From the NCBI GenBank assembly GCA_902771635.1, contig CACXXW010000019.1:1-46429 (forward strand): a DNA stretch of 46,429 nucleotides, given 5' to 3'. The DNA comes from an uncultured Bacteroidia bacterium. GTDB taxonomy: Bacteria > Bacteroidota > Bacteroidia > Bacteroidales > F082. The notes below the pieces were generated by a model. The model had not been told where the DNA came from, did not search any database, and saw nothing but the letters and a program-made list of their open reading frames with translations. The stretch's first letter is position 1, and every line of letters starts with the position of its first letter. Made by a program: the position numbers and the translations under genes. Below, in pieces: positions 2,927 to 26,625 of the stretch.

Positions 2927-2943
2927 AGTATCTTTTTTGGTAC

Positions 2944-2993
2944 GGCCTTTCGACAGGCTCAAGGGCCTAAGGTTGTTGAGTCTGTCGAAGCCC
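2944..2993. repeat. Palindromic interspersed repeat, copy 1
   Basis: Inverted arms GGCCTTTCGACAGGCTCA and TGAGTCTGTCGAAGCC flank a loop of about 15 nt. Related copies occur at 10609-10634, 29737-29780 and 33794-33862, always between genes. This copy lies between the minus-strand -7 box at 3012-3019 and the MBL start codon, so it should fold as a hairpin in that 5' UTR. Confidence 0.75.
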
Positions 2994-3011
2994 TACATTC
3001 TTTTGCGAGGG

Positions 3012-3019
3012 CAAAGATA
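3012..3019 (-). promoter_or_regulatory. -7 box for the MBL/TPR operon
   Basis: TATCTTTG on the minus strand. It is divergent from the plus-strand -7 box at 3053-3060. Confidence 0.5.
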
Positions 3020-3052
3020 AGGTTTTTTCCACAATAATCTAAAGAAATTGCC

Positions 3053-3060
3053 TATCTTTG
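3053..3060 (+). promoter_or_regulatory. -7 box for the outer-membrane protein gene
   Basis: TATCTTTG lies 19 nt upstream of the ATG at 3079, giving a very short 5' UTR. This also argues against the in-frame TTG inside this box being the start codon. Confidence 0.55.
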
Positions 3061-3078
3061 TCCGCTAATTTGGTATTC

Positions 3079-6279: not shown

Positions 6280-7499
6280 GTGTTAGCCTTTCTCATGGCG
6301 TGACGCACAGTAAGGAAGGCAGAGGTGCAGCCCACCACCAAAATCGTAGCGAAAATCAGCAACACATCTTTCAGTTTCAAAAGCACGGGATAGGCATCCA
6401 CAACATAGTTGCCACCTGTTCCGAACTTCACAAAACCGAATTGCTGCTGCAACAACACCAAAATGATGCCCAATAGCAATCCTATGATACCGCCGGCCAC
6501 GGAAATCAGCAAGCCTTCATTCATGAAGATTTTCTGAATCAGACGGTTATCGGCACCCATAGCCTTCAAGATTTCCGTGTCCTTGCGCTTGTCGATCATC
6601 AGCATGGAGAGTGAACCGACCACATTGAAAGTGGCCAAAATCAAGATGAAAGTGAGGATGACATACACCGCCCACTTTTCGGAACGCATGATTCTATAAA
6701 GTGTCTCCTGTTGTTCTTGTTGGTTCTTCACCGTGTAATCCTCGCCTATTATGGAGGCAACCGACTTCTTTACCTTATTAATATCGGTGTTCGGAGCTGT
6801 AAAAAGTTCCACATTCGTGGCTTTATTCTCATATTCAAGTAGTTCCGAGAGCAAATCGAATGGCACTAGCACCAGTTTCTCATCCTGTTCCTGCTCGGTG
6901 GAGAAGACACTACGCACAGTCAGCACATCGGAGTTGAAGCTGTTTTCGAGGCTCATCAGCGATGCATTGCCGCGCTTGGGCACATAAATGCGCACCATGG
7001 CGTAAGGATTGTACGCATTAATACCAAGATACCACGCCACACCTGCGCCGGGAATAGCGAAATAATGCTCATCCTCATCTGAAAGTACCAAATCACCACC
7101 ACCGAAAACAACTTCTTTCAAACGAGTAATCTTTTGGTACTCCAAGCCAACACCCTTCACCTGCCCGATATGTTGTTTGTCATTGGCACGGAAAAGCGCA
7201 TCTTCGGTAATTGTTGGAATTACATAGTCAACACCTTGAATATCTTTAAGTTGGCCTAAAGGAAAAACCGTCAAGTCGATGGTCTTGCCTTTCACCGGTG
7301 AGATTTGCAAATCGGGAGTGAGGCGGTTGTTCATCGAAGAAATCACCTTCTCCAGTCCATTGAAGGCCGACAGCACCACAATGAGCGCAAATGAGCCTAC
7401 ACTAATACCCAAAATGGAAATCCATGTGATGATATTAATGAGGTTGTGGCTCTTCTTGGCCAGCAGGTAACGGTTTGCTATGAACAGCGGCAGTCTCAC
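6252..7499 (-). CDS. ABC transporter permease, LolC/LolE family
   Basis: A 415-residue inner-membrane FtsX-type permease. It starts with GTG at 7499, overlapping the TGA of rbfA by 4 nt (GTGA). TM1 is near residues 20-45 (IITWISILGISVGSFALIVV). A periplasmic MacB-like domain follows (~46-275), then TM2-TM4 (~280-310, ~325-360 and ~380-400) with the FtsX-type segment MLMIDKRKDTEILKAMGA. Length and topology fit the permease that releases lipoproteins from the inner membrane to a carrier. No ATPase gene (LolD) is adjacent. rbfA-lolE pairing is common in Bacteroidetes. The start MRLPLFIANRYLLAKKSHNLIN is typical of the family. Confidence 0.82.
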   Translation of the reverse strand: MRLPLFIANRYLLAKKSHNLINIITWISILGISVGSFALIVVLSAFNGLEKVISSMNNRLTPDLQISPVKGKTIDLTVFPLGQLKDIQGVDYVIPTITEDALFRANDKQHIGQVKGVGLEYQKITRLKEVVFGGGDLVLSDEDEHYFAIPGAGVAWYLGINAYNPYAMVRIYVPKRGNASLMSLENSFNSDVLTVRSVFSTEQEQDEKLVLVPFDLLSELLEYENKATNVELFTAPNTDINKVKKSVASIIGEDYTVKNQQEQQETLYRIMRSEKWAVYVILTFILILATFNVVGSLSMLMIDKRKDTEILKAMGADNRLIQKIFMNEGLLISVAGGIIGLLLGIILVLLQQQFGFVKFGTGGNYVVDAYPVLLKLKDVLLIFATILVVGCTSAFLTVRHAMRKANTQKSRLNDR

Positions 7500-7840
7500 T
7501 TTTCGGGATGCAGCAGGTTATCGATGTTTTCGATATAGTCGAGCGAGTCGTCCTCGATGAAACGCAACTCAGGCACTACACGCATTTGGTGGCGGATACG
7601 GTTGCCCAGCAGGCCCCGGATAGCTTTGGCATTTTGGCCTACCTCCTCCACGACCTTTTTCTTCTCATCCACACCGAACACACTCAGATACACACGCGCA
7701 TACGAGAGGTCGGAAGTGACATTGACGCGCGTCACGGTAATCATCAGCGAAGGCACTTTCGGTTTCAGTTCCTTCTGGAAAATATCACCTAATTCTTTTA
7801 GTAACAGCTTGTTTACTTTTTCTAGTCTCTTACCCTCCAT
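7496..7840 (-). CDS. rbfA: Ribosome-binding factor A
   Basis: A 114-residue KH-like protein that binds the 30S subunit and helps mature the 5' end of 16S rRNA. Conserved features seen are the N-terminal helix (KRLEKVNKLLLKELGDIFQ), the strand region MITVTRVNVTSDLSYARVY with the family's D-L-x-x-A-x-V-Y-x-S signature, and the C-terminal R-x-x-P-E-L-R-F-I segment followed by an acidic stretch (DDSLDYIENIDNLL). Length is normal for the family. A minus-strand -7 box (TATTTTTG, 7864-7871) sits 24 nt upstream. It is co-transcribed with the lolE-like gene. Confidence 0.93.
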   Translation of the reverse strand: MEGKRLEKVNKLLLKELGDIFQKELKPKVPSLMITVTRVNVTSDLSYARVYLSVFGVDEKKKVVEEVGQNAKAIRGLLGNRIRHQMRVVPELRFIEDDSLDYIENIDNLLHPEK

Positions 7841-7863
7841 AATTCAGTTTTCTTTTTTGTTTG

Positions 7864-7871
7864 CAAAAATA
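7864..7871 (-). promoter_or_regulatory. -7 box for rbfA-lolE
   Basis: TATTTTTG on the minus strand, 24 nt from the rbfA start codon. Confidence 0.45.
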
Positions 7872-7922
7872 GGCATTTCTTTTGAAATCTTTCGGAAAAG
7901 CATTCAGTAAACTGAAAATGTT

Positions 7923-7930
7923 TATTTTTG
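7923..7930 (+). promoter_or_regulatory. -7 box for the secreted subtilisin gene
   Basis: TATTTTTG on the plus strand, 30 nt upstream of the ATG at 7960. Confidence 0.5.
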
Positions 7931-7959
7931 CGAACTGAAACATAAATAATTACATTCCC

Positions 7960-10050
7960 ATGAAAACAATCATTAAACCACTATTCATCTTGGCCTTAAT
8001 GGCTTTGTCCGTGTTTTCATACGCGCAGGAGCCAGAGCAAAGCCAAGAATCAACCACCTATGTGGAGAACGAATTCATCATCTGGCTAGAGCAAGATGTG
8101 GATGCCGCAGACTTTGCCGCCAAGTCCAATACTGGAATCATGCCGAAAAGACAACTGTCCAAAAGGCTGAATATCTGGCTTTTCGAAATCAACGACAACA
8201 AAGAGCTTAGAGAAGACAAAATACGCCGCTTAAACGCCAATGCTGATGTCCGTGTCATCCAAAACAACCATACCAATATCACGTTACGCGAAGCGATTCC
8301 AGACGATCCTTTCTTTGGCCAACAATGGGCTCCTGCCATTATGAACCTGCCGCAAGCTTGGGAGGAATTTACCACAGGCGGTGTCACGGCGACTGGCGAC
8401 ACCATCGTGGTTGCAGTCATCGACGGAGGTGCTGATTGGACCCATGAAGACCTGAATTGCTGGGAAAACGCTCATGAAATCCCCAACAATGGCATCGATG
8501 ACGATGGTAACGGCTATATCGATGACTTTCACGGTTGGAATGCATACAACCACAACGGCTATGTCGGCAGCAACAACCATGGCACTCATGTTTCGGGCAT
8601 CATCGGTGCTGTCGGAAACAATGGAAAAGGCGTTTGCGGCGTGAATTGGAATGTAAAAATCATGCCCATCTGTGGCAGTTCGAGTAACGAGTCTGTCGTC
8701 GTAGAAGCCTATTCCTATGTTTTGGAGATGCGTGCGCGATACAATGAAACTGATGGAGAAGAAGGAGCTTTCATCGTGGCTACTAATTCTTCTTTCGGGG
8801 TCGATTACGGGAATCCAGACGATTATCCCATCTGGTGTTCGATGTATGATGAGATGGGCAATGTCGGCATATTGAGTTGCGCTGCCGGTCCCAACATGAA
8901 TGTGAATGTTGATGTGGTAGGTGATGTCCCATCCGCCTGTCCTGGAAATTATCTCATAGGCATCACCAACACCACTTCTTCCGACGAAAAATATGGAAAC
9001 GCTGGATATGGTGTCAACAACATCGACCTTGGTGCACCCGGCACATCTATCTATTCTACACTTCCTAACAACAATTACAGCAATATGACTGGAACCTCAA
9101 TGGCCACTCCACAAGTCTCTGGAACTATTGCGCTGATGTATGCTGCCTTGCCCGAGGAGATGATGATAGCATGCAAAAATGACCCAGCAAATTTCTGTCT
9201 TTCAGTGAGGCATCACCTTCTTAACGGTGCCGACCACTTGCCTTCGCTCGATGGTTTGGTTGCCGCAGGAAGGCGATTGAATGCCTACGGTGCAATCGAA
9301 AGTGTTTTATATGACAGCATTATACCCTCTTTAACAGGCGAAGTCAATATTTCTGGAGAACCTTTCTTCGGAGAAACCTTGACCGCCGAAACAAATTTAG
9401 GTTCTACGCCATCCATTCCTGATTTAGGAGAGTTGCATTACCAATGGCGAAGAGACACAACAGCTATCGAAGGAGCTGTCTATTCAACCTACACTTTGAC
9501 CGAAGATGACATTTTCGAGAAAGTCTGTGTACAAGTCACGGCCGAAAACTGCACAGGAGCGATAACTTCACCTCTTTTTGGCCCTATCAAAAAAGCGGAA
9601 CAGCCCATGCCCGAAGCTCCACAAATGGAGAGCAACACCGACACAAGCATAACTCTTGTTGCTATAGAAGATGGTGAATATAACATCAATGGCAGTGAGT
9701 GGCAACCTTCTCCAGTATTTGAAGGCTTAATGCCAAGCACTTCCTATATTTTCACTCAACGCAAGAAGGAAACAAGATCGCATTATGCTTCGCCAGTGAG
9801 TCCTGAAGCGGTATATTGCACGATGCCCTATGATCATCTTTGCGAGAACCATAGAAGCACCTTCAAAGTCTATCCTAATCCTGCCAAGGGATATATTATC
9901 ATCGAAGGCACAGGCAAAATCTTCGTCACAAATGCCCTCGGCCAAACCATCCTGACCAAGGAAATCAAAGGCAAGGAAAAGTTGGAATTGCCGCATGGAA
10001 TATATTTCGTGACCATGGGCGGCGAAACGCGGAAAATTGTGGTAGAATAA
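7960..10050 (+). CDS. Secreted subtilisin-family (S8) serine protease with T9SS sorting domain
   Basis: A 696-residue extracellular endopeptidase. A signal peptide (MKTIIKPLFILALMALSVF, cut near YAQ) and an inhibitor-like propeptide (~30-110) precede the S8 domain. The catalytic triad is visible: D155 in VAVIDGG, H207 in NHGTHVSG and S380 in GTSMATP; the oxyanion asparagine is probably N312 (AAGPN). Residues ~455-620 form Ig/FN3-like modules. The last ~70 residues (FKVYPNPAKG ... GIYFVTMGG) are a T9SS type A sorting domain, so the protein should cross the outer membrane through T9SS and be processed or anchored there. It is followed by an inverted repeat and the convergent dtd gene. Confidence 0.9.
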   Translation: MKTIIKPLFILALMALSVFSYAQEPEQSQESTTYVENEFIIWLEQDVDAADFAAKSNTGIMPKRQLSKRLNIWLFEINDNKELREDKIRRLNANADVRVIQNNHTNITLREAIPDDPFFGQQWAPAIMNLPQAWEEFTTGGVTATGDTIVVAVIDGGADWTHEDLNCWENAHEIPNNGIDDDGNGYIDDFHGWNAYNHNGYVGSNNHGTHVSGIIGAVGNNGKGVCGVNWNVKIMPICGSSSNESVVVEAYSYVLEMRARYNETDGEEGAFIVATNSSFGVDYGNPDDYPIWCSMYDEMGNVGILSCAAGPNMNVNVDVVGDVPSACPGNYLIGITNTTSSDEKYGNAGYGVNNIDLGAPGTSIYSTLPNNNYSNMTGTSMATPQVSGTIALMYAALPEEMMIACKNDPANFCLSVRHHLLNGADHLPSLDGLVAAGRRLNAYGAIESVLYDSIIPSLTGEVNISGEPFFGETLTAETNLGSTPSIPDLGELHYQWRRDTTAIEGAVYSTYTLTEDDIFEKVCVQVTAENCTGAITSPLFGPIKKAEQPMPEAPQMESNTDTSITLVAIEDGEYNINGSEWQPSPVFEGLMPSTSYIFTQRKKETRSHYASPVSPEAVYCTMPYDHLCENHRSTFKVYPNPAKGYIIIEGTGKIFVTNALGQTILTKEIKGKEKLELPHGIYFVTMGGETRKIVVE

Positions 10051-17113: not shown

Positions 17114-17584
17114 CTACCCTTTAAGAAAACCATTCAGTTTAATTTTGCTCTCCTCAAAAATACCCTTTTGCTTATCAGTCAGCTTTTTTGTATCTATTTT
17201 TGTACTGAGCCTCAACGCTTTTTCCAAATACTGTCTAAATTGATTCTTTTCGTTATGCTTCTTTTTGTATTCTATTCCACAACTGTCGACCGTTTTCACA
17301 AACTCATCCAACAAGTCGTTAGTCTCTTGTACGACTTGTTTTTTGGCCTCTGCATTGGATTTTGCATCGGCATCTTTTTTTATTTTTAGAGTTTTGGTAT
17401 TTTTTGAGGCTTTCGTAGAATTCTCATTTACATTATTCTTCAAATTCCTCCTTTTGCCCTCTGGTTTTATTTGCTTTTCTGTATTTGCCTTAGCTCTTCC
17501 GACTTTCCTTTCTTGTGCATTAGCAGTAAAGGCAAAGGCACCAATCAAGAGAGCCATTACTGTGGTAATAATAAAATTCTTCAT
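17114..17584 (-). CDS. Small secreted charged helical protein (paralogue A)
   Basis: A 156-residue protein. The signal peptide MKNFIITTVMALLIGAFAF, cut near TANAQ, is nearly the same as that of paralogue B (gene at 19004-19402). The mature part is very basic and Asn/Lys-rich at first (~25-85), then helical with LLDEFVKTVDSC and a C-terminal LTDKQKGIFEESKIKLN. That C-terminal motif is shared with paralogue B (LTKKQSDTFKELEIKYN) and, more weakly, with the protein at 25992-26345. The start is the ATG at 17584; upstream in-frame codons lie in the conserved leader. No known function. It is probably periplasmic or surface-exposed. Confidence 0.8.
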   Translation of the reverse strand: MKNFIITTVMALLIGAFAFTANAQERKVGRAKANTEKQIKPEGKRRNLKNNVNENSTKASKNTKTLKIKKDADAKSNAEAKKQVVQETNDLLDEFVKTVDSCGIEYKKKHNEKNQFRQYLEKALRLSTKIDTKKLTDKQKGIFEESKIKLNGFLKG

Positions 17585-17709
17585 TTTATAATCCCTATAT
17601 GAGTGTCGGGCGCAACTTTTGATGATTTGCCTACTCATAAAGCTTTTCGGCTTCCGCTATAGTATTATTTCAGCTGCAAATATATATATTATAATCTTGA
17701 TTTTACAAA
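17585..17709 (-). promoter_or_regulatory. Promoter and conserved leader, copy A
   Basis: The -33 TTTG (17706-17709) and -7 TATATTTG (17677-17684) are separated by 21 nt. The ~90-nt leader that follows contains, in sense order, GCCGAAAAGCT, GAGTAGGC, GTTGCGCCCGACAC (17603-17616) and TAGGGAT (17591-17597). TAGGGAT ends 6 nt before the ATG and could act as a Shine-Dalgarno-like site. The same blocks occur upstream of the genes starting at 19402, 26345 and (3' half only) 25868. Confidence 0.8.
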
Positions 17710-17760
17710 AAATGTGCCAGAAATAGCAACGACACGCTGTTTTATGGTCACTAAAAAGTG

Positions 17761-17768
17761 TATTTTTG
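17761..17768 (+). promoter_or_regulatory. -7 box for the RluE-type synthase
   Basis: TATTTTTG on the plus strand, 28 nt before the ATG at 17796. It is divergent from leader A. Confidence 0.45.
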
Positions 17769-17795
17769 CATCTGATTTGTCTTTGCAGATTAATT

Positions 17796-18341
17796 ATGGT
17801 GATTCTTTTCAACAAACCTTTTGGTGTTCTCAGCCAATTCACCCCTGAAGCCGGGCATCGGGCACTCAACGAGTTTGGTTTCCCTACCGGCGTGTATGCC
17901 GCTGGTCGCCTTGACCACGATAGCGAGGGCGCCCTGCTCCTCACCGATGAAGGGTGGCTTATCAAGAAACTGTTGGATCCAAAATACGAGCATCCACGTA
18001 CTTATTTGGCGCAAGTCGATGGGCAAATCACGCAAGAGGCTGTTAACCAATTGAAAAAAGGGGTAAACATCAAAGGCTACCACACCAAGCCCTGCCAAGC
18101 ACAAATGGTAGAACCGCCGGAAAAACTTTGGGAGCGGGAGCCACCCATCCGCTACCGCGCCAACATCCCGACCAGCTGGGTCAGGCTCACCCTTATCGAA
18201 GGCAAGAACCGACAAGTGCGCCACATGACGGCAGCCGTCGGGTTTCCCACGCTGCGTCTCATCCGTGTTCAGATTGGGAGTATTTCTCTTGGTGAGTTAA
18301 AGCCAGGGGAATGGAGGATTATTAATGAGCGCGTGATATAA
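17796..18341 (+). CDS. rluE: 23S rRNA pseudouridine synthase, RluE type
   Basis: A 181-residue RsuA/RluE-family enzyme that isomerises a uridine in 23S rRNA. The start MVILFNKPFGVLSQFTPE is the typical beginning of a stand-alone catalytic domain without an S4 domain. The catalytic aspartate is D40 in GRLDHDSEG. Further family motifs are KTYLAQVDG-like (RTYLAQVDG) and the C-terminal LIEGKNRQVRHMTAAVGFPTLRLIR, quoted here in two parts: LIEGKNRQVRHM and GFPTLRLIR. I chose the ATG at 17796 because it starts right at the conserved strand. The specific target (U2457) is inferred from the family. Confidence 0.88.
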   Translation: MVILFNKPFGVLSQFTPEAGHRALNEFGFPTGVYAAGRLDHDSEGALLLTDEGWLIKKLLDPKYEHPRTYLAQVDGQITQEAVNQLKKGVNIKGYHTKPCQAQMVEPPEKLWEREPPIRYRANIPTSWVRLTLIEGKNRQVRHMTAAVGFPTLRLIRVQIGSISLGELKPGEWRIINERVI

Positions 18342-18359
18342 ACACCGAAAGGCTTTCTA

Positions 18360-18911
18360 TCAAGCATAGTTTTCCGTAGGATACGTCTCATTCCAAGCGA
18401 TACTGTAATATTTGCCAAAATACCGTTTGGCGTGTCTGTTGGCTCTTGTTTCCGTCCAGAAAACACTATGGTCTCCCTTGCCGGAAGCACTCAACAGGCT
18501 GGGCAGCCCGATAACGGGAAGATACAACCAACCGAAGCGTTGGCTATCGGTAGTATGCCCAAACTCATGCATGCAAATCTGATTACCGAGAATAAACTTT
18601 TCTCCTTCGCCTTGCATCCAAGAACTAGCCCATAGGTCGACAAAAGTGCCCAACGACACGCCCATGCCATAATTGTAGCCTTTCTTTGTCACAAAAGTGA
18701 TGCCACCAAAGGTATCGACACGGTCGGCCTGACCAACCAAAGCTCGCCCTATTGAATAGAACCAGCCCGCAAGGGTCTGAGGCAACTCCCAAGTGAATCT
18801 GGAAAACAATTGCCAAAAGCGACCCAAAACCATGCGTTTGGAATCGGCAAGGAAAAGGCCTCGGCTGATTTGTGCAACGAGACGCAATCTATGGGACAAG
18901 GATGATGACAT
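18360..18911 (-). CDS. HEFGH-motif putative metallopeptidase-like protein
   Basis: A 183-residue protein starting with ATG at 18911. It contains a zinc-peptidase-like helix CMHEFGHTTDSQRFGWLYLP (residues ~113-132) followed by VIGLPSLLSA and WTETRANRHAKRYFG. The HEFGH plus later acidic ETRAN could supply the zinc ligands. An upstream amphipathic segment (WFYSIGRALV) and a glycine-rich GITFVTKKGYNYGMGVSLG hairpin are present. No signal peptide is seen. Similar HE(F/Y)GH(T)xQS-type domains occur in Bacteroidetes proteins of unknown role. It is convergent with the pseudouridine synthase (18-nt gap). Whether it is catalytic is unknown. Confidence 0.65.
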   Translation of the reverse strand: MSSSLSHRLRLVAQISRGLFLADSKRMVLGRFWQLFSRFTWELPQTLAGWFYSIGRALVGQADRVDTFGGITFVTKKGYNYGMGVSLGTFVDLWASSWMQGEGEKFILGNQICMHEFGHTTDSQRFGWLYLPVIGLPSLLSASGKGDHSVFWTETRANRHAKRYFGKYYSIAWNETYPTENYA

Positions 18912-18941
18912 TGGCAAAACTTGATATTCTATAACAGCATC

Positions 18942-18982
18942 AAAAAAAAGAGGGCAAAAGGAATACTTCCCCTTTGCCCCCT
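18942..18982 (-). terminator. Intrinsic terminator of small secreted protein B
   Basis: On the minus strand, GGGGGCAAAGGGG pairs with TCCTTTTGCCCTC and eight T follow. Hairpin and flanks are about 80% like those at 17047-17083. Confidence 0.85.
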
Positions 18983-19003
18983 ATTCAGATAAGATTATCC
19001 TTC

Positions 19004-19402
19004 TTAATGTTTGTCTTTAAGTTGCTTATAAAGATCAATCAGATTGTTATATTTGATCTCAAGCTCCTTGAAAGTATCAGATTGCTTCTTGGTCAAATTC
19101 TTCAGTTCTTTTTTAACACTCTGATAAGCTGTCTTAGCATCATTCATGTCACCTTCGAGGTTGATCTTATCTGTACTCTTTCCTTCCTTGCACTTATTAA
19201 TATCTGCCTCGAATGTGTTAACTGCTTTCTGAAAAGCATCGATCAAGTTTTGATTCAGAGAGACTTTGTCATCTTGTTTGACAAATCCTTTTTTGTCAGT
19301 TTTAATGCCTTTAGTGTCTTTCACATCTTCCTGTGCATTAGCCGTGATGGCAAAGCCACCCATGAAAAGTGCAAATAATGCAGTAATAAAAAGCTTCTTC
19401 AT
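19004..19402 (-). CDS. Small secreted charged helical protein (paralogue B)
   Basis: A 132-residue protein with signal peptide MKKLFITALFALFMGGFAI, cut near TANAQ. The mature domain is predicted to be helical and rich in Lys/Asp: LIDAFQKAVNTFEADINKC, then SVKKELKNLTKKQSDTFKEL and IKYNNLIDLYKQLKDKH. It resembles paralogue A in signal peptide and C-terminal motif; the middle has diverged. It has its own promoter, leader and terminator, so it is a monocistronic gene. Function unknown. The family resembles other short Bacteroidetes exported helical proteins. Confidence 0.82.
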   Translation of the reverse strand: MKKLFITALFALFMGGFAITANAQEDVKDTKGIKTDKKGFVKQDDKVSLNQNLIDAFQKAVNTFEADINKCKEGKSTDKINLEGDMNDAKTAYQSVKKELKNLTKKQSDTFKELEIKYNNLIDLYKQLKDKH

Positions 19403-19524
19403 TTTTTTATCCCTAAATAAGTGTCGGGCGCAACCTTTAATTTATTGCCTACTCATAAGCTTTTCGGCATCCGCTATAATACTTTTTCAGCCGCAAATAT
19501 ACACTTTAATTCTGATTTCTCAAA
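19403..19524 (-). promoter_or_regulatory. Promoter and conserved leader, copy B
   Basis: The -33 TTTG (19521-19524) and -7 TATATTTG (19494-19501) are spaced by exactly 19 nt. Leader blocks are GCCGAAAAGCT, GAGTAGGCAAT, GTTGCGCCCGACAC (19421-19434) and TAGGGAT (19409-19415). The leader is about 83% identical to copy A, more than the coding regions are to each other. Confidence 0.82.
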
Positions 19525-19625
19525 AGAAAGAGTATTTTTTTGGTCTCACTGTGATAATTCCAAAAACTATGCCAAAAAAACTGAAAAAGACTAAAAAATT
19601 ACATAAGAATATACAACTATATGCA

Positions 19626-19961
19626 TTACAACTTCTTACAAATATCATCAGACTGATATGACTGGATTTCAAACAGGTTCAGAAATCCAGTCATCATGAA
19701 CACGCTACGGATGTCATTGCAAATGTTCTGGATGATGATTTTCCCTCCCCGGTCGGCAGTAGCTTTGCGTAAGGTCAGGAAAATCCTAAGACCCGAGCTG
19801 GATATGTAGGAGAGATCTGTACAATCCAAAATGATTGTTTGGTCAGCTTCCTCGGCCAAAGCGTTCATTTGCGGCGTGATTTCCTGTGCTCCAGGGGTAT
19901 CCAAACGGCCTATAAAGCGAACTATTATCGTTTTGTTTTCACGCGAGATGTTTACTTCCAT
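19626..19961 (-). CDS. STAS-domain anti-sigma factor antagonist
   Basis: A 111-residue single STAS domain like SpoIIAA/RsbV. The signature DCTDLSYISSSGLRIFL (~46-62) holds the serine that partner kinases phosphorylate (probably S55). In the partner-switching scheme, dephosphorylated STAS binds the HATPase kinase and frees its target. It is the last gene of the operon; its start overlaps the end of the SpoIIE/HATPase gene by 23 nt, so the two are surely co-translated. No sigma factor gene is nearby, so the final target is unknown. Confidence 0.9.
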   Translation of the reverse strand: MEVNISRENKTIIVRFIGRLDTPGAQEITPQMNALAEEADQTIILDCTDLSYISSSGLRIFLTLRKATADRGGKIIIQNICNDIRSVFMMTGFLNLFEIQSYQSDDICKKL

Positions 19962-22155
19962 GTTGTTCGTAGTTTTTAGTCATTATTAATATGTTGTTTT
20001 CTCCTTTTCGTTCATAGTTCACCGTATCCATAATGGTACGGACAAGATGGATGCCAAGACCTCCAATCGGACGTTCATCCATCTTTGCATTAATGTCAAT
20101 GTGTTCCTTGGATGTAGGATCGAAGGGGGTGCCACTATCGGTAACGACAAACGACACACGTTTTCCGTCAACGATGGCTTCGATGTCCACCACACCATCC
20201 TTTCCTTCGGGATAAGCATACATGATCACATTGCTCACGGCTTCTTCTAAGGCCAGATTGAGGTTGAAAATGGCTTCGTGGTCGAGTTGTGCCTCGCCTG
20301 CAACAGCCTCAACAAACTCAGGCAATAATGCAATCTGTTCGACATCATTGTGCAGGGTGAGGTGATGCGTAGTCTTGTTGGCCTTGCCCAGATAGCGGAT
20401 GAAGAGCATGGTCAGGTCATCGCTTTGCGGAGCTTCACCTACAAAGAGAGTGACCTGTTGTTCAATGTTCTTCATATGCTCTTCTGAGTGTTTTTTCCCG
20501 TGAAGGACCTTCTTTATTCGAGCTTCGCCAAATTGTTCTTGGAAAACATTTTCTGCCTCTGAAAGTCCGTCAGTATAAAGGAAGAGTGCGTCATCGTATT
20601 TGAAATCGGTTTCCTGCTCAACAAAATCCGACCCCTTGACAATACCTAGCGGAAGGTTGGGTTCCACAGGCAGCATCCTAATGGCATCGGTGAGGATCAT
20701 GGGCGGGTTGTGGCCTGCATTACAGTAGTGAAGGTGACCTGCCTCCAGGTCAAGCACACCACAGAAGAATGTGACAAACATACTGCTTTCGTTGGTTTCG
20801 GCCATAGAGTCGTTCATTGAGGCAACGATTTTTGCCGGGCTGTCTTCATGGGCCGACATGGCACGAAACAGGCTCCGGGTCACCGCCATCACCAATGAGG
20901 CAGGAATGCCCTTGCCCGACACATCGCCAATGCAGAAGAACAACTTTTCATCACGGATGAAGAAATCATACAAGTCACCCCCAACCTCTTTGGCGGGAAT
21001 GATGGAAGCAGCTAAATCCAAGTCTTTTCGTTCTGGAAAAGGCGGGAAAGTCTTGGGAATCATTGCCATCTGAATCTCTCTGGCGATGTGGAGCTCATTT
21101 TCCATCCTTTCCTTCTGTTCGTTCATACTTAGGTATTTGGCTTGGTTTTTTGTCGCCACCCGAAGAATGACAATGAGCATGGCTAAACCTAACAGTTGCA
21201 GCAACTTCACAATCATACCAACCCGACGAACGCCGCCATACAAATCTTTTTCAGGAAGCACAATCGACAAAAACCACCCCGTTCGCTCCACGGGTGAGAA
21301 ATAGACATGGTTGATTTGTCCTTGGTAACGGACAGGCATCTCGCCCGACTGTCCAGATAGCATGGCCTGGTTGAAATGGTCGAGCGCTTCGTAGTCTTCA
21401 GATCCCGAAGCAAACTGATCAACGGTGGTTTGCATCACCAAGGTTTCAACAGGACACACCATAATTTGTCCGCTCCGACTGACAACCATACTGAAGGCGT
21501 TGGGATAAACCTTGATCTCGCCAACGAAATCCGTGAGCCAATCCAAAGAGATGTCGGCGGTTAGGATGGCTGCCACCTCACCGTTTGTGTCTTTTACTGG
21601 CATGGAGAAGGTTGTCATCAGGATATCACCGCCATTTTCATCAAAATAAGGTTCCGACCAATAACTGTCATTCAATTCAATAGGTTTGGTAAACCATTCC
21701 ATGGAGGGATAGTCGTATTCCTCCGTAGCCAGTGAAAGCATCCTGATTTCACCAGTCTCCAAATCTCTAGTGGCGTAAGGGGCATACAATGGGTTCCTTA
21801 TGCTGTAACCAGGAACGAGAGCCATGGTTGACCCGACTACGACAGGGTTTTCGCTCACCACCCGCTGGGGAATCCGTTCCAAGCTGTCGGGATTTTCCAA
21901 ACACCATTGTGCCACCCAAATACTATTGCGGACTGCAGCTTCGGCTTGATTCACGACATCCATGATTTTGTTCTCGGCACTTTTCAATTCGCTCTCCGCG
22001 CGTAGTGAGGCCTCTTGCTTGATTTCCCTTTGGGTAAAGGCAAACTGGATGATGGCAGTGGCCTCCAACGTGAGGGCGGCCACAATCACCAGCAGCAATC
22101 TAGCTCTCATCGATATGCCGCCTTTTTTATTCTCATTCTTTCGATCGAATTTCAT
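19939..22155 (-). CDS. SpoIIE-type PP2C phosphatase with Cache-like sensor and C-terminal HATPase
   Basis: A 738-residue membrane signalling protein combining RsbU- and RsbW-like functions. A TM helix near 17-40 (RARLLLVIVAALTLEATAII) precedes an extracytoplasmic Cache-like sensor (~45-310, with YWSEPYFDENGGDILMTTFS). A second TM is near 320-345. A linker helix follows (NELHIAREIQMAMIPKTFPP), then the SpoIIE/PP2C domain (~385-595: VGGDLYDFF, IGDVSGKGIPASL, SDDLTMLFI) and a HATPase domain (~610-735: LALEEAVSNVIMYAYP, DSGTPFDPT, GGLGIHLVRTIMD). The start is the ATG at 22155, overlapping the upstream stop by 4 nt (ATGA). It likely dephosphorylates and/or phosphorylates the STAS partner in response to an external signal. 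Confidence 0.9.
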   Translation of the reverse strand: MKFDRKNENKKGGISMRARLLLVIVAALTLEATAIIQFAFTQREIKQEASLRAESELKSAENKIMDVVNQAEAAVRNSIWVAQWCLENPDSLERIPQRVVSENPVVVGSTMALVPGYSIRNPLYAPYATRDLETGEIRMLSLATEEYDYPSMEWFTKPIELNDSYWSEPYFDENGGDILMTTFSMPVKDTNGEVAAILTADISLDWLTDFVGEIKVYPNAFSMVVSRSGQIMVCPVETLVMQTTVDQFASGSEDYEALDHFNQAMLSGQSGEMPVRYQGQINHVYFSPVERTGWFLSIVLPEKDLYGGVRRVGMIVKLLQLLGLAMLIVILRVATKNQAKYLSMNEQKERMENELHIAREIQMAMIPKTFPPFPERKDLDLAASIIPAKEVGGDLYDFFIRDEKLFFCIGDVSGKGIPASLVMAVTRSLFRAMSAHEDSPAKIVASMNDSMAETNESSMFVTFFCGVLDLEAGHLHYCNAGHNPPMILTDAIRMLPVEPNLPLGIVKGSDFVEQETDFKYDDALFLYTDGLSEAENVFQEQFGEARIKKVLHGKKHSEEHMKNIEQQVTLFVGEAPQSDDLTMLFIRYLGKANKTTHHLTLHNDVEQIALLPEFVEAVAGEAQLDHEAIFNLNLALEEAVSNVIMYAYPEGKDGVVDIEAIVDGKRVSFVVTDSGTPFDPTSKEHIDINAKMDERPIGGLGIHLVRTIMDTVNYERKGENNILIMTKNYEQHGSKHLA

Positions 22156-22982
22156 AAGATAGATGTTAATGCTGCGCGAAGTTCTGGCATGGGACATTTG
22201 GTGTCCCTTTCCACAATCAAGGTCTTGAGTCCGGCGAAGGGACGTATCATCTCCTCTATCTCTTTCACCGGAATGCCTTCCCCGAAATATGCCGGTACAA
22301 AACACTCCCAGAATCGGATGGCCAGTGCTTTGGGCATATGGAAAGTTTCCTGGATGAACGCCTCATTGCTGAGACAACAACAGAGATAAACCATTCCCAC
22401 GTCAAAAAAGTGGTTGCCCCAACAGAAATCACCCAGATCGATGAAATAGCGTTGGGCGCCAACGAAAATGGCGTTGCTGTATTGGAGGTCACCATGGATG
22501 GCCGTGTCTTCATCGGGAACATCAGCGATGAAACGCTCCAGACGGTCTTTTTCCATTGGCGAAAAGAAGGGGGTTTCCTTGAGGAGCCGATAATAACGGT
22601 CTTTAACATTCTCGAACTGCGTGGTATCCACATGCGTAGCATGGAGTTTAAGGCACATTTGGGCAAATTCGGAAGCAAATTGCATTACTTTTTCCGGCTC
22701 ATCTGCCGTGGCACGCGAATAGGATTTCTTTCCTAAGACACGACGGAAACAGATGCCGTAGCGACCGTCTTCGGTGACGACATATTCTCCTGGTTCCGGT
22801 GTGGAAATGCCCATATCATAGACCTTTCGGGCCAAATTCATCTCATCCAACGGCTGCTGGATTTTGCCAGGAAAATAGAGCTTGAGCATCACCGAAGGGT
22901 CGGTCTTATGGTCGTAGCTCTCGCCGTTGGCGCCGCCGCCAGATAAGACGAAATCATCGAGAGATATTCTTTTGGGCTCCAT
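22152..22982 (-). CDS. Aminoglycoside-phosphotransferase-fold kinase
   Basis: A 276-residue APH/choline-kinase-like protein. The catalytic loop is HGDLQYSNAIF (residues ~164-174) and the metal-binding motif is FIDLGDF (~180-186, in place of DxD/DFG). A nucleotide-binding N-lobe is suggested by LSGGGANGESYDHKT. It resembles the TIGR02172-like small-molecule kinase group common in Bacteroidetes and Firmicutes. The substrate is unknown; antibiotic resistance is not implied. It sits inside the alarmone/partner-switching operon, overlapping the HD gene before it by 29 nt and the SpoIIE gene after it by 4 nt, which argues for a shared role. Confidence 0.82.
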   Translation of the reverse strand: MEPKRISLDDFVLSGGGANGESYDHKTDPSVMLKLYFPGKIQQPLDEMNLARKVYDMGISTPEPGEYVVTEDGRYGICFRRVLGKKSYSRATADEPEKVMQFASEFAQMCLKLHATHVDTTQFENVKDRYYRLLKETPFFSPMEKDRLERFIADVPDEDTAIHGDLQYSNAIFVGAQRYFIDLGDFCWGNHFFDVGMVYLCCCLSNEAFIQETFHMPKALAIRFWECFVPAYFGEGIPVKEIEEMIRPFAGLKTLIVERDTKCPMPELRAALTSIL

Positions 22983-23556
22983 GCGAAAACACCTTATTAA
23001 TTAATAATTCAAATTCTTGGAAAGCTGCCGTGTCTTGCAGATCCCTAAGGGAATCGGCAAGGCCACGGTAATGCCACTCATGGTCTTTGGGGTCTTTGGA
23101 ATGAAAACGTCTCCAGAGGGCATCGCCCATCTCTTCATAGTCACGTGCGATGGCGCGTATGTTGGAAAGCTTGTCGCCAAGGGCTACTATCTTGGCATCG
23201 TAAGACGCTTTGGCCAAACGGTCGATGACGGCTTGTTTGCGCTCATGCCAGCTCTCTTCATCGTTCACACCTTCCTTCTTCTCTTCGCTCTCCTGCGCCA
23301 CCAAGGAAGCTATCCTGTCTCCAAACTCCGTTCTAATGTCTTCAACTGTAATATCGGTGTCTTCTACGGTATCGTGCAAAGCGGCGGCAGCTAATAGTTC
23401 CTGGTCAGTAGTCATCGTTGCCACGATTCCCATCGCTTCCATAGGATGAATGATGTAAGGGAAGCCTTTCCCTCGGCGTTCGGTGCCAGCGTGGGCTTTG
23501 ACCGCAAAGATGATGGAACGGTCGAGAAGTTCTGTGTTGAGCGAGTTGTTTGCCAT
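22954..23556 (-). CDS. HD-domain small alarmone hydrolase-like protein
   Basis: A 200-residue HD phosphohydrolase like MESH1/SAH and the hydrolase half of SpoT, which removes the 3'-pyrophosphate from (p)ppGpp using manganese. Motifs are AHAGTERRGKGFPYIIHP (with the RxxGxPY-like substrate loop and His), AALHDTVEDT (HD pair plus ED) and LGDKLSNIRAIARDY (Asp/Asn of the active site). It ends in a helical tail. The gene starts 2 nt after the alarmone synthetase stop, so the synthetase and hydrolase are made together as separate chains rather than as one Rel protein. Confidence 0.85.
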   Translation of the reverse strand: MANNSLNTELLDRSIIFAVKAHAGTERRGKGFPYIIHPMEAMGIVATMTTDQELLAAAALHDTVEDTDITVEDIRTEFGDRIASLVAQESEEKKEGVNDEESWHERKQAVIDRLAKASYDAKIVALGDKLSNIRAIARDYEEMGDALWRRFHSKDPKDHEWHYRGLADSLRDLQDTAAFQEFELLINKVFSHGAQKNISR

Positions 23557-23558
23557 AA

Positions 23559-24653
23559 CTATTGGTTCATAAAGGGAAGGTCTTTCGTTTGCTCCACCAG
23601 AAGGTCAGCCATCGCCTCGTTCCCTCCAGAGGGTCCGCTCAGCGTGTCCAGCATCCATTTTAGTCCGATGCGACCACCGTTGTTCTTGAGGATATAGGCT
23701 ATACAGAGGTTCTGCAGTGCCACAGAGGAGGAAAGGATATCAATGTCGGTCAGGCCAATTTGGAAGCAGGCGATTTGGTAAGCCGCCTCGGAATAGTTCT
23801 TCATCAAGGCATCTATATCCCCAAGGGTTTTGAACCCCATAGCTTCAAACAACCTTAGGAAAGGAGATAGATCTACCGGCTGAATCTCTGCCTGGTTGAT
23901 GGAGGCAATTCGTCGTGTCAACGCATCAAAAGGTCCGATTTGCAGATAGCTTTTGAAGGCATCGCCGTCGAGTGGCACCTCGTTTAGGTTGCCTGATGCC
24001 ACCAGGTTCTGCACCTGCCGACGATAGTCGGCGAGCTCATGACGGATGCGGCTGAACTCATCATCCACCAGCTCAAGCATGCCCGCCAAGCGACTCAAAT
24101 TGCGCTTATACACCTTGGGAATCTCCACCCCGCTTTTGTATCCTGTATCATGGTTCATGTTGGCCCAAGCGTGTTGGAGGACGGTTCGCATCTGCACTTC
24201 AAAGCGGATCTGGTTCAGTTCGGGAAACTCTGCGTTGGTATAGGCGGCTTCGGGGATTCGACATATATAATGTAAAGAGAGGTAGCCGAAGCTGTCGATC
24301 TCATGCGCCTTTCGCTTGTCGATGGAGTTCTCCCAATCGATCTCAAACAGACGCTCAAGAACAGAGGCCACCTTGTTCACATCATCATTATAGAATGTGA
24401 TCACGCGGATGCCCACCACATCGGTGACATCATGGATGCTCTGGTATTTGTTTCCTTTAAGTTGGAGCTTCCCCGCGAGGGAGTCCTCTTTTTTCACACG
24501 ATGCTCCACGGCAGCCACGATAATGCCTGCCTCGGCGAAGAACTCCTTCAACTTCTCGGGAATCACTTCCGCCATCTGCTCATAAATAGGCAGCAACTGG
24601 CGGTATTGCGCCAGCAATTCTTGTGTGTGGGAATCGGTGATTATATTGTTCAT
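23559..24653 (-). CDS. RelA/SpoT-type (p)ppGpp synthetase
   Basis: A 364-residue protein with a RelA/SpoT nucleotidyltransferase domain (~40-205), which transfers pyrophosphate from ATP to GTP/GDP. Motifs are LKGNKYQSIHDVTDVVGIRV (written here without its tail; ATP-loop and D-x-x-G-x-R), IDSFGYLSLHYI (Y-x-S-x-H) and EVQMRTVLQHAWANMNHDT (catalytic E-x-Q-x-R and QHAWA). There is no HD domain, TGS or ACT domain. The C-terminal ~150 residues are helical and unlike RelQ/RelP, possibly a sensor or oligomerisation part. I chose ATG at 24653 (MNNIITDSHTQELLAQ). It is the first gene of the five-gene operon; the -7 box is at 24672-24679. Confidence 0.88.
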   Translation of the reverse strand: MNNIITDSHTQELLAQYRQLLPIYEQMAEVIPEKLKEFFAEAGIIVAAVEHRVKKEDSLAGKLQLKGNKYQSIHDVTDVVGIRVITFYNDDVNKVASVLERLFEIDWENSIDKRKAHEIDSFGYLSLHYICRIPEAAYTNAEFPELNQIRFEVQMRTVLQHAWANMNHDTGYKSGVEIPKVYKRNLSRLAGMLELVDDEFSRIRHELADYRRQVQNLVASGNLNEVPLDGDAFKSYLQIGPFDALTRRIASINQAEIQPVDLSPFLRLFEAMGFKTLGDIDALMKNYSEAAYQIACFQIGLTDIDILSSSVALQNLCIAYILKNNGGRIGLKWMLDTLSGPSGGNEAMADLLVEQTKDLPFMNQ

Positions 24654-24671
24654 AGTTTGTGTATAAAGAAG

Positions 24672-24679
24672 CAAAAATA
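24672..24679 (-). promoter_or_regulatory. -7 box of the alarmone/partner-switching operon
   Basis: TATTTTTG on the minus strand, 19 nt upstream of the synthetase start. No good -33 match is seen. Confidence 0.45.
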
Positions 24680-24711
24680 CTAATTAATACCAAAATGTGT
24701 TGTTTTTGGGC

Positions 24712-24745
24712 AAAAAAAAGACCTTCAAGTTTCCTCAAAGGTCTT
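24712..24745 (-). terminator. Intrinsic terminator of the WG-repeat gene
   Basis: On the minus strand, AAGACCTT (24738-24745) pairs with AAGGTCTT (24718-24725) and is followed by a run of T. It lies 62 nt beyond the stop at 24808. Confidence 0.8.
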
Positions 24746-24807
24746 ACAATCATACCCATTATTAAAACGGTTTTGTTTCTTCCATGATTGTCCGCAGTTT
24801 AAAACAC

Positions 24808-25593
24808 TTAATACCAAGAGTTGCTCTTTTGACTATCATAGCTATCTCTGGCAACTTTTTCCTCGCTGACAAGTTTACCTTTTTTATCAATATAAAAGGC
24901 ATTGCCCCAAAAATCATAAACAACCGTGTACTTATTTGACAAGCCTTCAATGGATCCAAAATCATACACTTGTTGATACTTACATGGAACAATCAAAGTG
25001 CCAGTTGTGTTGATAAAACCATACCCTTTCTCTAATATCCAAACCTTACACATCCCTTCATGGAAATCCCCGACTTCATCGTATTTCGGTGTAACAAGAA
25101 TCTTTCCAGTCTCAGACATGATGCCCATTTTTTTCGTCTTTTGGTCTTTAATGGCATACATGCCTTCTGATTTGTCACCCACTATATACAACTTGTCTCC
25201 TATTAGTTTCAACTTGATATCACGCCAATCCTGATTCAATCTGACTGGGACCAATCCCTCCGCGTCCATCGTATAAACCCAAGCAAAATCAAATCCGGTG
25301 AGCATTTTTCCGCTTTCACTCATAATGGCACAAGCTTTATTCCTACCGTTGACTTTCACCAATTGGGTATAATGACTGTCTATAGGAATAACCGCATCAA
25401 CCCATTCGCTGATAATCTTGCCAGAAGCATCGGCAACCGCATGTTTCTCTCCATTTGTCACCGAAAAATACTTACCCATAATTGGAGTTGCCTCATCATA
25501 CTCGTCAAACACAGGATTATGATCCGAGGATTGAGCCATGACAAATTGGCAAAGCAACATCATGGACAGGAACAATAAAACCAATCTTTTCAT
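24808..25593 (-). CDS. Secreted WG-repeat protein
   Basis: A 261-residue exported protein. The signal peptide is MKRLVLLFLSMMLLCQFVM, cut near AQ. WG-type beta repeats follow, for example KHAVADASGKIISEWVDAV, MGIMSETGKILVTPKYDEV and YGFINTTGTLIVPCKYQQV, each a pair of strands with the G-K-hydrophobic and P-x-Y-D/Q pattern. The sequence is A/T-rich compared with flanking housekeeping genes. I chose the ATG at 25593. It is 17 nt after the small membrane protein gene and so is probably expressed with it. WG repeats are generally thought to bind protein or ligand; the specific role is unknown. Confidence 0.8.
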   Translation of the reverse strand: MKRLVLLFLSMMLLCQFVMAQSSDHNPVFDEYDEATPIMGKYFSVTNGEKHAVADASGKIISEWVDAVIPIDSHYTQLVKVNGRNKACAIMSESGKMLTGFDFAWVYTMDAEGLVPVRLNQDWRDIKLKLIGDKLYIVGDKSEGMYAIKDQKTKKMGIMSETGKILVTPKYDEVGDFHEGMCKVWILEKGYGFINTTGTLIVPCKYQQVYDFGSIEGLSNKYTVVYDFWGNAFYIDKKGKLVSEEKVARDSYDSQKSNSWY

Positions 25594-25610
25594 AACTATG
25601 GATTGTTTAA

Positions 25611-25868
25611 TTAAAACCCAAATGAGTAAGCAATCAAACCTACAGCAGAGAGCAATGCCAAGAAACCAAACCATCTTGTATATGAGCCTTTCTTACGCAG
25701 ATAAGGAACACAAAATGTGACAATGCCAAATACAGCTTCAATGACGGCTCCTACAATAGGTTCTTCCATGATTATGGCTACTATATCAACTCCAACAGAG
25801 ATGACCAGCCACAACAATGTGATGAGGACCCTCACCAACTTGTTTTCCTTTTTTTCTTCAGTTGACAT
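25611..25868 (-). CDS. Small membrane protein preceded by the conserved leader
   Basis: An 85-residue integral membrane protein with three predicted TM helices (LITLLWLVISVGVDIVAII ~14-33, VGAVIEAVFGIVTFCVPYL ~39-57 and GFLALLSAVGLIAYSFGF ~68-85) and a charged N-terminus (MSTEEKKENKLV). It is not related to the secreted proteins at 17114, 19004 and 25992, yet its start codon carries the same leader 3' half. It is probably cotranscribed with the WG-repeat gene downstream. Function unknown. Confidence 0.72.
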   Translation of the reverse strand: MSTEEKKENKLVRVLITLLWLVISVGVDIVAIIMEEPIVGAVIEAVFGIVTFCVPYLRKKGSYTRWFGFLALLSAVGLIAYSFGF

Positions 25869-25912
25869 TCTTTTATCCCTAAATCCGTGTCGGGCGCAAC
25901 TATTTAATTAGA
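25869..25912 (-). promoter_or_regulatory. Conserved leader, copy C (3' half only)
   Basis: GTTGCGCCCGACAC (25887-25900) and TAGGGAT (25875-25881) occur at exactly the same distances from the ATG as in the other three copies. The upstream GAGTAGGC and GCCGAAAAGC blocks are absent, and no TAnnTTTG box is seen directly before it. Confidence 0.75.
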
Positions 25913-25935
25913 CAATTAATTCATTTCGTTTTATC

Positions 25936-25977
25936 GGTCTGAGGGTGATAAAGGTTGTTTTTTATCACCCTCAGACC
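25936..25977. terminator. Perfect 17-bp hairpin between small genes
   Basis: GGTCTGAGGGTGATAAA (25936-25952) and its exact complement (25961-25977) enclose an 8-nt loop. It lies 15 nt beyond the stop of the gene at 25992-26345. No T-run follows on the minus strand, so it may be a partial terminator or an RNA-stabilising/processing hairpin. Confidence 0.6.
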
Positions 25978-25991
25978 AACAAACACAAGTG

Positions 25992-26345
25992 TCAATTTTT
26001 CTCCAGCAATGCGTCATTCATCTTTTTGGTTATCTTAAGATAACGCTTCATTTGGGCATCGCTCATCTCTCCTTTTGCTTTGTCAATTTTTTCCGAGAGC
26101 TCCTGCGCTTTTTCAGCCAATTTGACATATTCGCTCATTGCCGACATGTCGCCCTTCATCGCTTTTTTGTAAGTTTTGATGTACTGGTCGACATACTTTT
26201 CGTACTCATTGAGCACCTTGTCCCAATCATCACCTGCAACAATTTCCGTCCTTGCAGATGCTTTGGTTTCCATAGCCGAAACCGTGGTGCAGATGTCTCC
26301 CATCAGGAAAGCCATTACTGCTGCTGACATCATTATTTTCTTCAT
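25992..26345 (-). CDS. Small secreted helical protein (paralogue D)
   Basis: A 117-residue exported protein. The signal peptide is MKKIMMSAAVMAFLMGDIC, cut near VSAME. The mature part is one long helical domain: VLNEYEKYVDQYIKTYKKA, then GDMSAMSEYVKLAEKAQEL and MSDAQMKRYLKITKKMNDA. It shares the overall layout and a weak C-terminal match (S/T-x-x-Q-x-x-x-(F/Y)) with paralogues A and B, and carries the same leader. It resembles other short Bacteroidetes proteins with a 'YekyVdxYI...KA..GD..A' pattern. Function unknown. Confidence 0.78.
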   Translation of the reverse strand: MKKIMMSAAVMAFLMGDICTTVSAMETKASARTEIVAGDDWDKVLNEYEKYVDQYIKTYKKAMKGDMSAMSEYVKLAEKAQELSEKIDKAKGEMSDAQMKRYLKITKKMNDALLEKN

Positions 26346-26424
26346 TTTCTAATCCCTAAGTATGTGTCGGGCGCAACTATTGAATTCATTGCCTACTCTC
26401 TCCCAGCTTTTCGGCTTCAGCTGC
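26346..26424 (-). promoter_or_regulatory. Conserved leader, copy D
   Basis: Blocks GCCGAAAAGCT, GAGTAGGCAAT, GTTGCGCCCGACAC (26364-26377) and TAGGGAT (26352-26358) are all present. There is no TATATTTG box just upstream; the nearest is that of the structured RNA (26629-26636), so this gene may depend on read-through past that RNA's terminator, or use a promoter I do not recognise. Confidence 0.75.
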
Positions 26425-26451: not shown

Positions 26452-26625
26452 AAAAAAAAGCCCGCACCCCAATCCTATCTTGAAGTGAAGGCTCTCGCAT
26501 GCCCGAAACAAAGATAAGGAAAGCAGTGCGTGCTTTATGGGCACGCAGTGTATCCAGCCTGCCTTGTTTCGTTCAAATTTGCGAGATTCTCACTTTCAGA
26601 CAGGTGGTATCGCTACCGATATATG
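26452..26625 (-). ncRNA. Rod-shaped structured RNA, candidate 6S-like RNA
   Basis: No reading frame fits this stretch, but it folds into one long interrupted hairpin. The 5' end has GGUA-GCGA-UACC with a GNRA tetraloop (26606-26617). Paired arms from the base upward are 26465-26468/26603-26606, 26474-26480/26598-26604, 26484-26488/26590-26594, 26493-26499/26580-26586, 26504-26511/26564-26571 and the apical UGCGUGC/GCACGCA (26526-26532/26540-26546). An asymmetric internal loop lies between 26500-26503 and 26572-26579. The base is followed by eight U (26452-26459), as in an intrinsic terminator, and a promoter lies just upstream. Length (~170 nt), a single rod and an internal bubble resemble 6S RNA, the RNA polymerase regulator. 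I cannot confirm the family, because primary-sequence conservation is low. Confidence 0.55.

Follow-up and report, generated by a model that had tools for sequence, protein, structure and literature searches.

The window analysed here is a 46,429-nucleotide (nt) stretch of DNA from an uncultured Bacteroidia bacterium of the Bacteroidales (contig CACXXW010000019.1 of assembly GCA_902771635.1), in which four small genes on the minus strand, A to D, are each preceded by a copy of a short leader element. The genome is 3.02 Mb in 269 contigs and is 77% complete. As the original prediction had claimed, a 14-mer and the string TAGGGAT stand at fixed distances from the four ATGs. The 14-mer is exact in all four copies (17603-17616, 19421-19434, 25887-25900 and 26364-26377, minus strand), and its first base lies 32 nt from the A of the ATG in each. 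TAGGGAT-N6-ATG is present four times in the window, where 100 shuffles gave a mean of 0.09, and the 14-mer at up to three mismatches occurs 14 times against a mean of 2.8, a count not seen in any of 100 shuffles; as the source of the four copies in the window, chance is excluded. The start-proximal element reads GUUGYGCCCGACAC-N5/6-AGGG-N8/9-AUG, and is referred to below as the hairpin element. The copies and their genes are as follows.

17593..17616, minus strand: hairpin element, copy A, with the 14-mer at 17603-17616, CCC at 17608-17610 and GGG at 17593-17595; the helix covaries in relatives
17114..17584, minus strand: gene A, small protein of 156 amino acids (aa) with a signal-peptide-like N-terminus
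19411..19434, minus strand: hairpin element, copy B, with CCC at 19426-19428 and GGG at 19411-19413
19004..19402, minus strand: gene B, small protein of 132 aa with a signal-peptide-like N-terminus, a weak paralogue of A
25877..25900, minus strand: hairpin element, copy C, with CCC at 25892-25894 and GGG at 25877-25879, without the DUF805b RNA described below
25611..25868, minus strand: gene C, membrane-like protein of 85 aa
26354..26377, minus strand: hairpin element, copy D, with CCC at 26369-26371 and GGG at 26354-26356
25992..26345, minus strand: gene D, small protein of 117 aa with a signal-peptide-like N-terminus

A longer open reading frame (ORF) of gene A begins upstream at 17638, and the ATG at 17584 is the start placed by the element. 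None of the four proteins matches a Pfam family at its cut-off. BLASTP shows proteins A and B to be weak paralogues (27.5%, 4e-11), with D weaker still (A-D, 4e-5), whereas protein C has no BLASTP match to A, B or D at E 10, in agreement with the original view that A, B and D are related and C is not. Elsewhere in this genome the 14-mer recurs on two other contigs: seven copies were found at up to one mismatch, all of them exact, and each of the three outside the window (L001, L002 and L003) is followed by AGGG and, 8 nt later, by a start codon.

The CCC of the element can pair with GGG in a hairpin of 3 base pairs (bp), and the middle pair covaries. Departures from C-G were seen at two host sites (L294 and L296), where GTTGCGCACGACAC is accompanied by AGTG in place of AGGG, and likewise at L307-L309, in one genome. 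Among all collected loci, the 319 sites with a start codon have C-G (267), A-U (49) or G-C (3) as the middle pair, one of the G-C sites (L410) having a GC-rich flank that makes it a possible chance match; none of 15 hits with a non-complementary middle combination has a start. In a scan of viral contigs, the middle position of each arm was left free, with C and G excluded respectively, and 80 of 81 stretches were analysed, giving 67 deduplicated sites (A-T 47, G-C 4, T-A 1, non-complementary 15). An ATG was found 7-10 nt downstream of 39 A-T and three G-C sites, and of none of the T-A or non-complementary sites; all 42 sites with an ATG at this distance are thus complementary, without complementarity having been fixed beforehand. 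The mixed combinations (C with non-G, non-C with G) were covered only by a one-mismatch scan of 60 genomes and by the profile described below.

In an ungapped alignment of 91 sequences, 30 cells are changed on both sides against a shuffled mean of 10.8, and the covariation score is 0.265 against 0.089; none of 500 shuffles was as high in either measure. Helices slid along this alignment score at most 0.016, and RNAalifold recovers the three core pairs unaided. The shuffle controls keep relatedness, and the one-per-family counts given below use a crude protein k-mer filter. Column conservation is inflated, because sites were gathered by motif match. At the outer pairs (index 6 and 8), scans for alternatives left 56 hits after deduplication; the only one with an ATG at 7-10 nt (L484) is non-complementary and looks like chance. 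At one host site (L312), index 6 combines U with G. As a result, the outer two pairs give almost no covariation evidence. The covariation case for the predicted helix is therefore that of one pair, which shows the three Watson-Crick types and so the covariation looked for in a structured cis-acting RNA, together with the fourth-pair and spacing results below.

A fourth pair is possible between the base after GGG and the G preceding CCC. It is present in 46 of 49 A-U sites but in 101 of 267 C-G sites (Fisher 3e-14). Predicted stability of the A-U form is 0.0 kcal/mol without it and -2.9 on average with it, the corresponding values for the C-G form being -2.2 and -4.6; the fourth pair would thus accompany the A-U middle pair nearly always because it restores predicted stability. 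Formation of the fourth pair also places the AUG one nucleotide farther away. A spacing of at least 9 is found in 65 of 101 C-G sites with the fourth pair against 14 of 166 without it, and, with one site per family, in 51 of 77 against 12 of 119 (Fisher 1e-16); the link repeats in two separately gathered host sets (8e-6 and 1e-10). The bases at the next two positions correlate with spacing as well, because the spacer is identical in both classes (AU-rich, 8 nt, position -8 being A and -7 U), with one extra base, a pyrimidine in 81 of 90, standing beside GGG in the longer-spacing class. In 237 of 319 sites, 8 nt separate the end of the helix from the AUG, and the near-constancy of this unpaired stretch is the best hint at what the element does.

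A different hairpin, GUUG-CGCC-CGAC, had been proposed within the same leader. This candidate was rejected: it shows no change on both sides, its U-A pair is broken in 4 of the 91 aligned sequences, and its 3' strand takes insertions. Compensatory changes, looked for in the leader stems, were accordingly absent from GUU/GAC and found in CCC/GGG instead. A contact between the GGC of GAGTAGGC and the GCC of the supposed loop cannot be general, with GAGTAGGC lying within 80 nt upstream of 17 of 245 sites.

Pairing of GUU with GAC is nevertheless permitted in 98.5% of cells, and combined with CCC/GGG the helix order would yield an H-type pseudoknot. Riboswitches of the preQ1-I type are small pseudoknots adjoining the start codon, and a tiny ligand-binding pseudoknot of this kind might be imagined here. 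Variants of the loop can be read both ways: true sites carry GATGAC, GATTGAC, GATAGAC, GATTAAC or GACGAACAC in place of GACAC, of which GATTAAC and GATTGAC would let GUU pair in a shifted register, whereas GATGAC, GATTGAC and GACGAACAC insert bases into the strand. Relaxing GUU in viral contigs gave 48 stretches, two of them without GUUG (L511 and L512) and neither with an ATG; relaxing GAC gave 56, and among ten read as new only L428 has an ATG. Covariation did not reveal the second helix (the absent double changes and the four broken U-A pairs count here too), and no pathway common to the downstream genes is evident. We consider such a riboswitch improbable.

We searched for the hairpin element in other genomes with a profile (R1) that uses sequence only, was built from 17 sites and leaves out the start codon. 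Within the genus, 89 of 99 genomes match at E 0.5, including 81 at E 0.01; the genus-wide matches listed are a part of the whole, and the loci fetched a part of those listed. In an order-wide sample, drawn evenly at 90% completeness, 28 of 295 genomes and 18 of 177 genera match at E 0.01, among them the window's genome and three congeners, and two of the weakest matches (L301 and L304) lack AGGG and look like chance. A permissive search of 14 genomes gave 85 matches, 69 at E 0.0055 or lower and 16 at E 0.07 or higher. At least one of the 69 strong matches (L024) has neither AGGG nor a start, and 19 of 20 fetched from the weaker permissive matches, including one at E 0.07, show the element and a start codon.

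The exact pattern, sought in one genome per species, gave at least 119 stretches. Among the 80 titles shown are Prevotella, Muribaculaceae, Paludibacteraceae, Candidatus Symbiothrix and Azobacteroides, together with many rumen Bacteroidales; two of them are from outside the Bacteroidota, L210 (Gemmatimonadetes) and L220 (Sphingomonadales), which both lack a start in place and act as an internal negative control. Viral contigs carry the element as well: eight stretches have the C-G form, and the A-U sites number 47 after deduplication. Of the 295 genomes in the order sample, six have the A-U form, at nine places in all, compared with the 28 genomes matched by R1, which scores some of these places too. 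Viral sites mostly have the A-U middle pair (L347-L426) and host sites mostly C-G, a contrast that rests on four scans and is only approximate, because host sites were mostly gathered by C-G patterns. Searches of named phages and plasmids gave only short matches, from other hosts, at E 2 to 4, and none of the matches listed for the motif strings in the literature concerns Bacteroidetes, judged by title. One 7.2-kb stretch (L112, positions 1700-8900 of its contig) holds an array of eight hairpin elements, seven of which have a start codon in place.

The genes behind the element are diverse. BLASTP single linkage groups the 239 downstream proteins that reach 35 aa into 115 clusters, the largest with 42 and 35 members, and distant homology between clusters is possible; Pfam identifies 52 families among 113 representatives, none matching more than three. 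The element therefore stands before non-homologous genes, as expected of a structured cis-acting RNA. Among host element genes that reach 100 aa, 121 of 151 have a signal-peptide-like start, compared with 209 of 594 background ORFs, as judged by a regular expression with the background scored generously. At viral loci, four of 45 families have such a start, and the proteins are small. Because A, B and D are weak paralogues, the leader could be thought of as inherited flanking sequence, or else as chance. The 115 clusters oppose this, and so does the placement of the start: an ATG lies 7-9 nt after AGGG in 94 of 111 new pattern matches listed from two collection scans, against a background of 5.7%, with a pattern that ignored the ATG. 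Inherited flank or chance is thus already contradicted and retains almost no probability. Taken as a whole, the original prediction is partly supported. Its suggestion of a cis-acting RNA and its claim that gene descent alone does not explain the leader are supported, as is, for hosts, its link with exported proteins, and the outcome that would have reduced the leader to flanking sequence (homologous genes only and no covariation) was not seen, non-homologous genes and covariation both being found, though in a different helix from the one proposed.

The level at which the element acts can be approached from its position. The distance from its end to the ATG is 17.8 +/- 1.0 nt, whereas the nearest TAnnTTTG box lies 60 +/- 47 nt away, and at 100 of 173 testable sites a same-strand ORF ends near the element or within 150 nt upstream of it. 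These data fit translation better than transcription, since the distance to the ATG is near-fixed, that to the box is variable and many sites lie behind a same-strand ORF. Boxes are indeed enriched (79 of 237 sites have one within 200 nt, compared with 19 after shuffling), as a DNA-level operator or promoter element would have it. Such an element is very unlikely, however, given this spacing, the upstream ORFs and the covariation of the two arms.

Several features lie upstream of the hairpin element in the window:

17628..17660, minus strand: DUF805b RNA 5' of copy A, 37.8 bits against a gathering score of 35.6
19446..19477, minus strand: DUF805b RNA 5' of copy B, 36.3 bits
26390..26424, minus strand: DUF805b RNA 5' of copy D, 35.6 bits, only equal to the gathering score
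17677..17684, minus strand: TATATTTG box upstream of copy A, read directly in the sequence
19494..19501, minus strand: TATATTTG box upstream of copy B, read directly in the sequence
26453..26616, minus strand: rod-shaped structured RNA with a terminator-like end, 5' of copy D (model R2, 40.5 bits, E 2.1e-9), the single copy in the window

The TATATTTG boxes are those that had been described as promoter-like, and we take them to resemble the Bacteroidetes -7 box. Likewise, GCCGAAAAGC and GAGTAGGC, said to be shared by A, B and D, are present 5' of these three and absent from the sequence before C. They belong to a separate module. The leader consists of two, and its upstream half in A, B and D is the Rfam DUF805b RNA (RF02914, clan CL00115), with D at the threshold: that copy counts as over the cut-off in some Rfam scans and is unlisted in one. 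The motif reportedly comes from Weinberg and colleagues, 2017, and its cis-regulatory label is the Rfam type field. The hairpin element is distinct from it. In the scanned stretches, neither copy C nor the hairpin has an RF02914 hit that reaches the gathering threshold, DUF805b is absent from copy C and from L001, L002 and L003 in the window's genome, and no Rfam 15 family covers the hairpin element in the window or in 34 other loci (4, 20 and 10 per scan), most collected loci being unscanned. The statement that no described family has the leader sequence thus stands for the start-proximal half and fails for the upstream half. On another contig of the genome, a weak DUF805b-like element (L011, 10232-10267; 23.7 bits, below the cut-off) lies 5' of a lipoprotein-like gene, with no 14-mer in the fetched stretch.

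A second upstream module was seen at other loci. CCACGCTT or GTGCCACG occurs in the 120-150 nt upstream of 26 of 245 sites and is mostly the terminator-like end of a rod-shaped RNA of ~170 nt, although at least L265 looks unrelated by eye. The R2 model, built from 13 copies, matches 95 of 99 genus genomes, with up to 18 copies per genome, including the ten genomes without an R1 match. The rod (window; L016, L037, L522-L541) ends in terminator-like CCACGCTTCTTTT and often lies ~40 nt 5' of the hairpin element; at L522, what follows the rod is instead a DUF805b-like element that scores below the cut-off. No Rfam family matches over the rod in the loci scanned, and it is apparently a separate, undescribed multicopy RNA. 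A further small conserved hairpin, roughly CCTTTGAGGTGCTGGAAAGG, is found after the rod's terminator-like end and before the hairpin element (L523, L527, L532 and others). In the window, an inverted repeat, GGTCTGAGGGTGATAAA...TTTATCACCCTCAGACC, lies between genes D and C (25936-25978) and has no T run.

The reading we prefer, with a probability of about 0.55, is that the leaders share a small RNA hairpin, lying in the 5' untranslated region, which acts at translation initiation by placing the ribosome. Comparison of the sites shows a helix of the 3 bp of CCC/GGG, or 4 bp where G and Y flank them, closing a loop that begins with GACAC in most sites and is preceded by A-rich AAAGUUGY. Since the helix mostly ends 8 nt before the AUG, its GGG strand occupies the usual Shine-Dalgarno (SD) place. 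The 30S subunit may measure or contact the helix while the AUG occupies the P site; either the ribosome or a trans factor may read the conserved loop and 5' flank, contact with one or the other being the simplest explanation of their conservation. The most likely effect would be to recruit ribosomes to small accessory genes or position them there, in hosts mostly on genes for exported proteins. What lies farther upstream (DUF805b RNA, the rod or neither) seems to be a separate input to one start-site module.

Several observations weigh against ribosome placement by this hairpin. Complementary sites without a start in place number 26 (15 C-G, 10 A-U, 1 G-C). Two of five covariation measures (double-change pairs and further pair types) are not above shuffles, and double changes are confined to one of the four pairs in the 91-sequence alignment, where both flanking C-G pairs are invariant. 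The helix is weak, at -2.2 kcal/mol in 119 of 196 C-G families, copies A-D of the window fold no better than shuffles, and the CCC/GGG helix is missing from the best fold of copy A. Mean predicted probability of the middle pair in short windows is 0.82 for the 196 C-G families and 0.43 for 43 A-U families. The element is also not a general translation signal, because 18 of 99 genus and 267 of 295 order genomes have no R1 match at E 0.01. Finally, the conserved GUUG and GACAC suggest a specific partner, and a plain ribosome-placing hairpin needs none.

This last point leads to the main rival, a translational operator, in which an RNA-binding protein or a small RNA (sRNA) at the loop and flank would repress (or activate) a regulon of accessory genes. 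About a dozen bases outside the helix are strongly conserved, a number inflated by gathering sites through matches to them. The site spans -32 to -9, which is the usual place for translational operators, host targets are enriched in exported proteins, and the taxonomic distribution is patchy. On the other hand, no clear single RNA complementary to the whole 14-mer was found in 40 genomes with G-U allowed, a search that does not extend to shorter pairing or to proteins; some degenerate strings recur in up to five of these genomes. Nor does an operator require the AUG to be adjusted by one nucleotide to the length of the helix. We regard it as possible but the less likely account.

Bacteroidia are not a group in which one would expect the SD position to hold a conserved helix. 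In this class, the anti-SD sequence is described as sequestered by bS21, bS18 and bS6, and initiation as relying on upstream adenines and reduced secondary structure (PMC9976891), the latter a further point against our preferred reading. The same hidden anti-SD suggests a more specific version of ribosome placement, which we offer only tentatively, as somewhat doubtful: the element might be a cis-encoded substitute for the SD helix. Because the ribosome hides its strand, the messenger RNA (mRNA) would bring both, carrying CCC as well as GGG, and the duplex would dock 8 nt before the AUG, in the platform site left vacant; viruses would use an A-U version whose stability is regained by the fourth pair.

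The choice of start codons without SD pairing is an open question in Bacteroidia, which are dominant in gut and rumen flora. A covarying hairpin that is common to hosts and viral contigs, has its distance to the AUG adjusted to the nucleotide and precedes more than 100 protein clusters offers a compact handle on it. Judged by sequence comparison, the start-proximal hairpin looks like an undescribed translation-start signal of gut and rumen Bacteroidales and of viral contigs. Small uncharacterised exported proteins would gain a common regulatory label from it, and the element may serve as an expression-control part in gut commensals.

Compared with known systems, the hairpin element resembles the SD/anti-SD helix in having a short G-rich strand within a helix 8 nt before the AUG. 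It differs in that the CCC partner lies within the same mRNA and covaries, and Bacteroidia are described as generally doing without SD use (PMC9976891). The middle G turns to U or C along with its cis partner, also before an AUG, which argues for cis pairing; no ribosomal RNA, 16S included, was found in the 77% complete host genome. With preQ1-I riboswitches, the element shares small size and a position beside the start codon, but its second helix is unsupported and its targets have no evident pathway. The RbpB/FopS network of Bacteroides is likewise a case of post-transcriptional regulation in Bacteroidales with a multicopy RNA family, but FopS is described as a trans-acting sRNA whose 5' stretch is single-stranded and which has a terminator hairpin (PMC11697453). 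The DUF805b RNA, finally, is itself the upstream half of the leaders of A, B and D and has the Rfam type cis-regulatory, but its 35-position model stops before the 14-mer, and at copy C and at L001-L003 the hairpin element stands without it.

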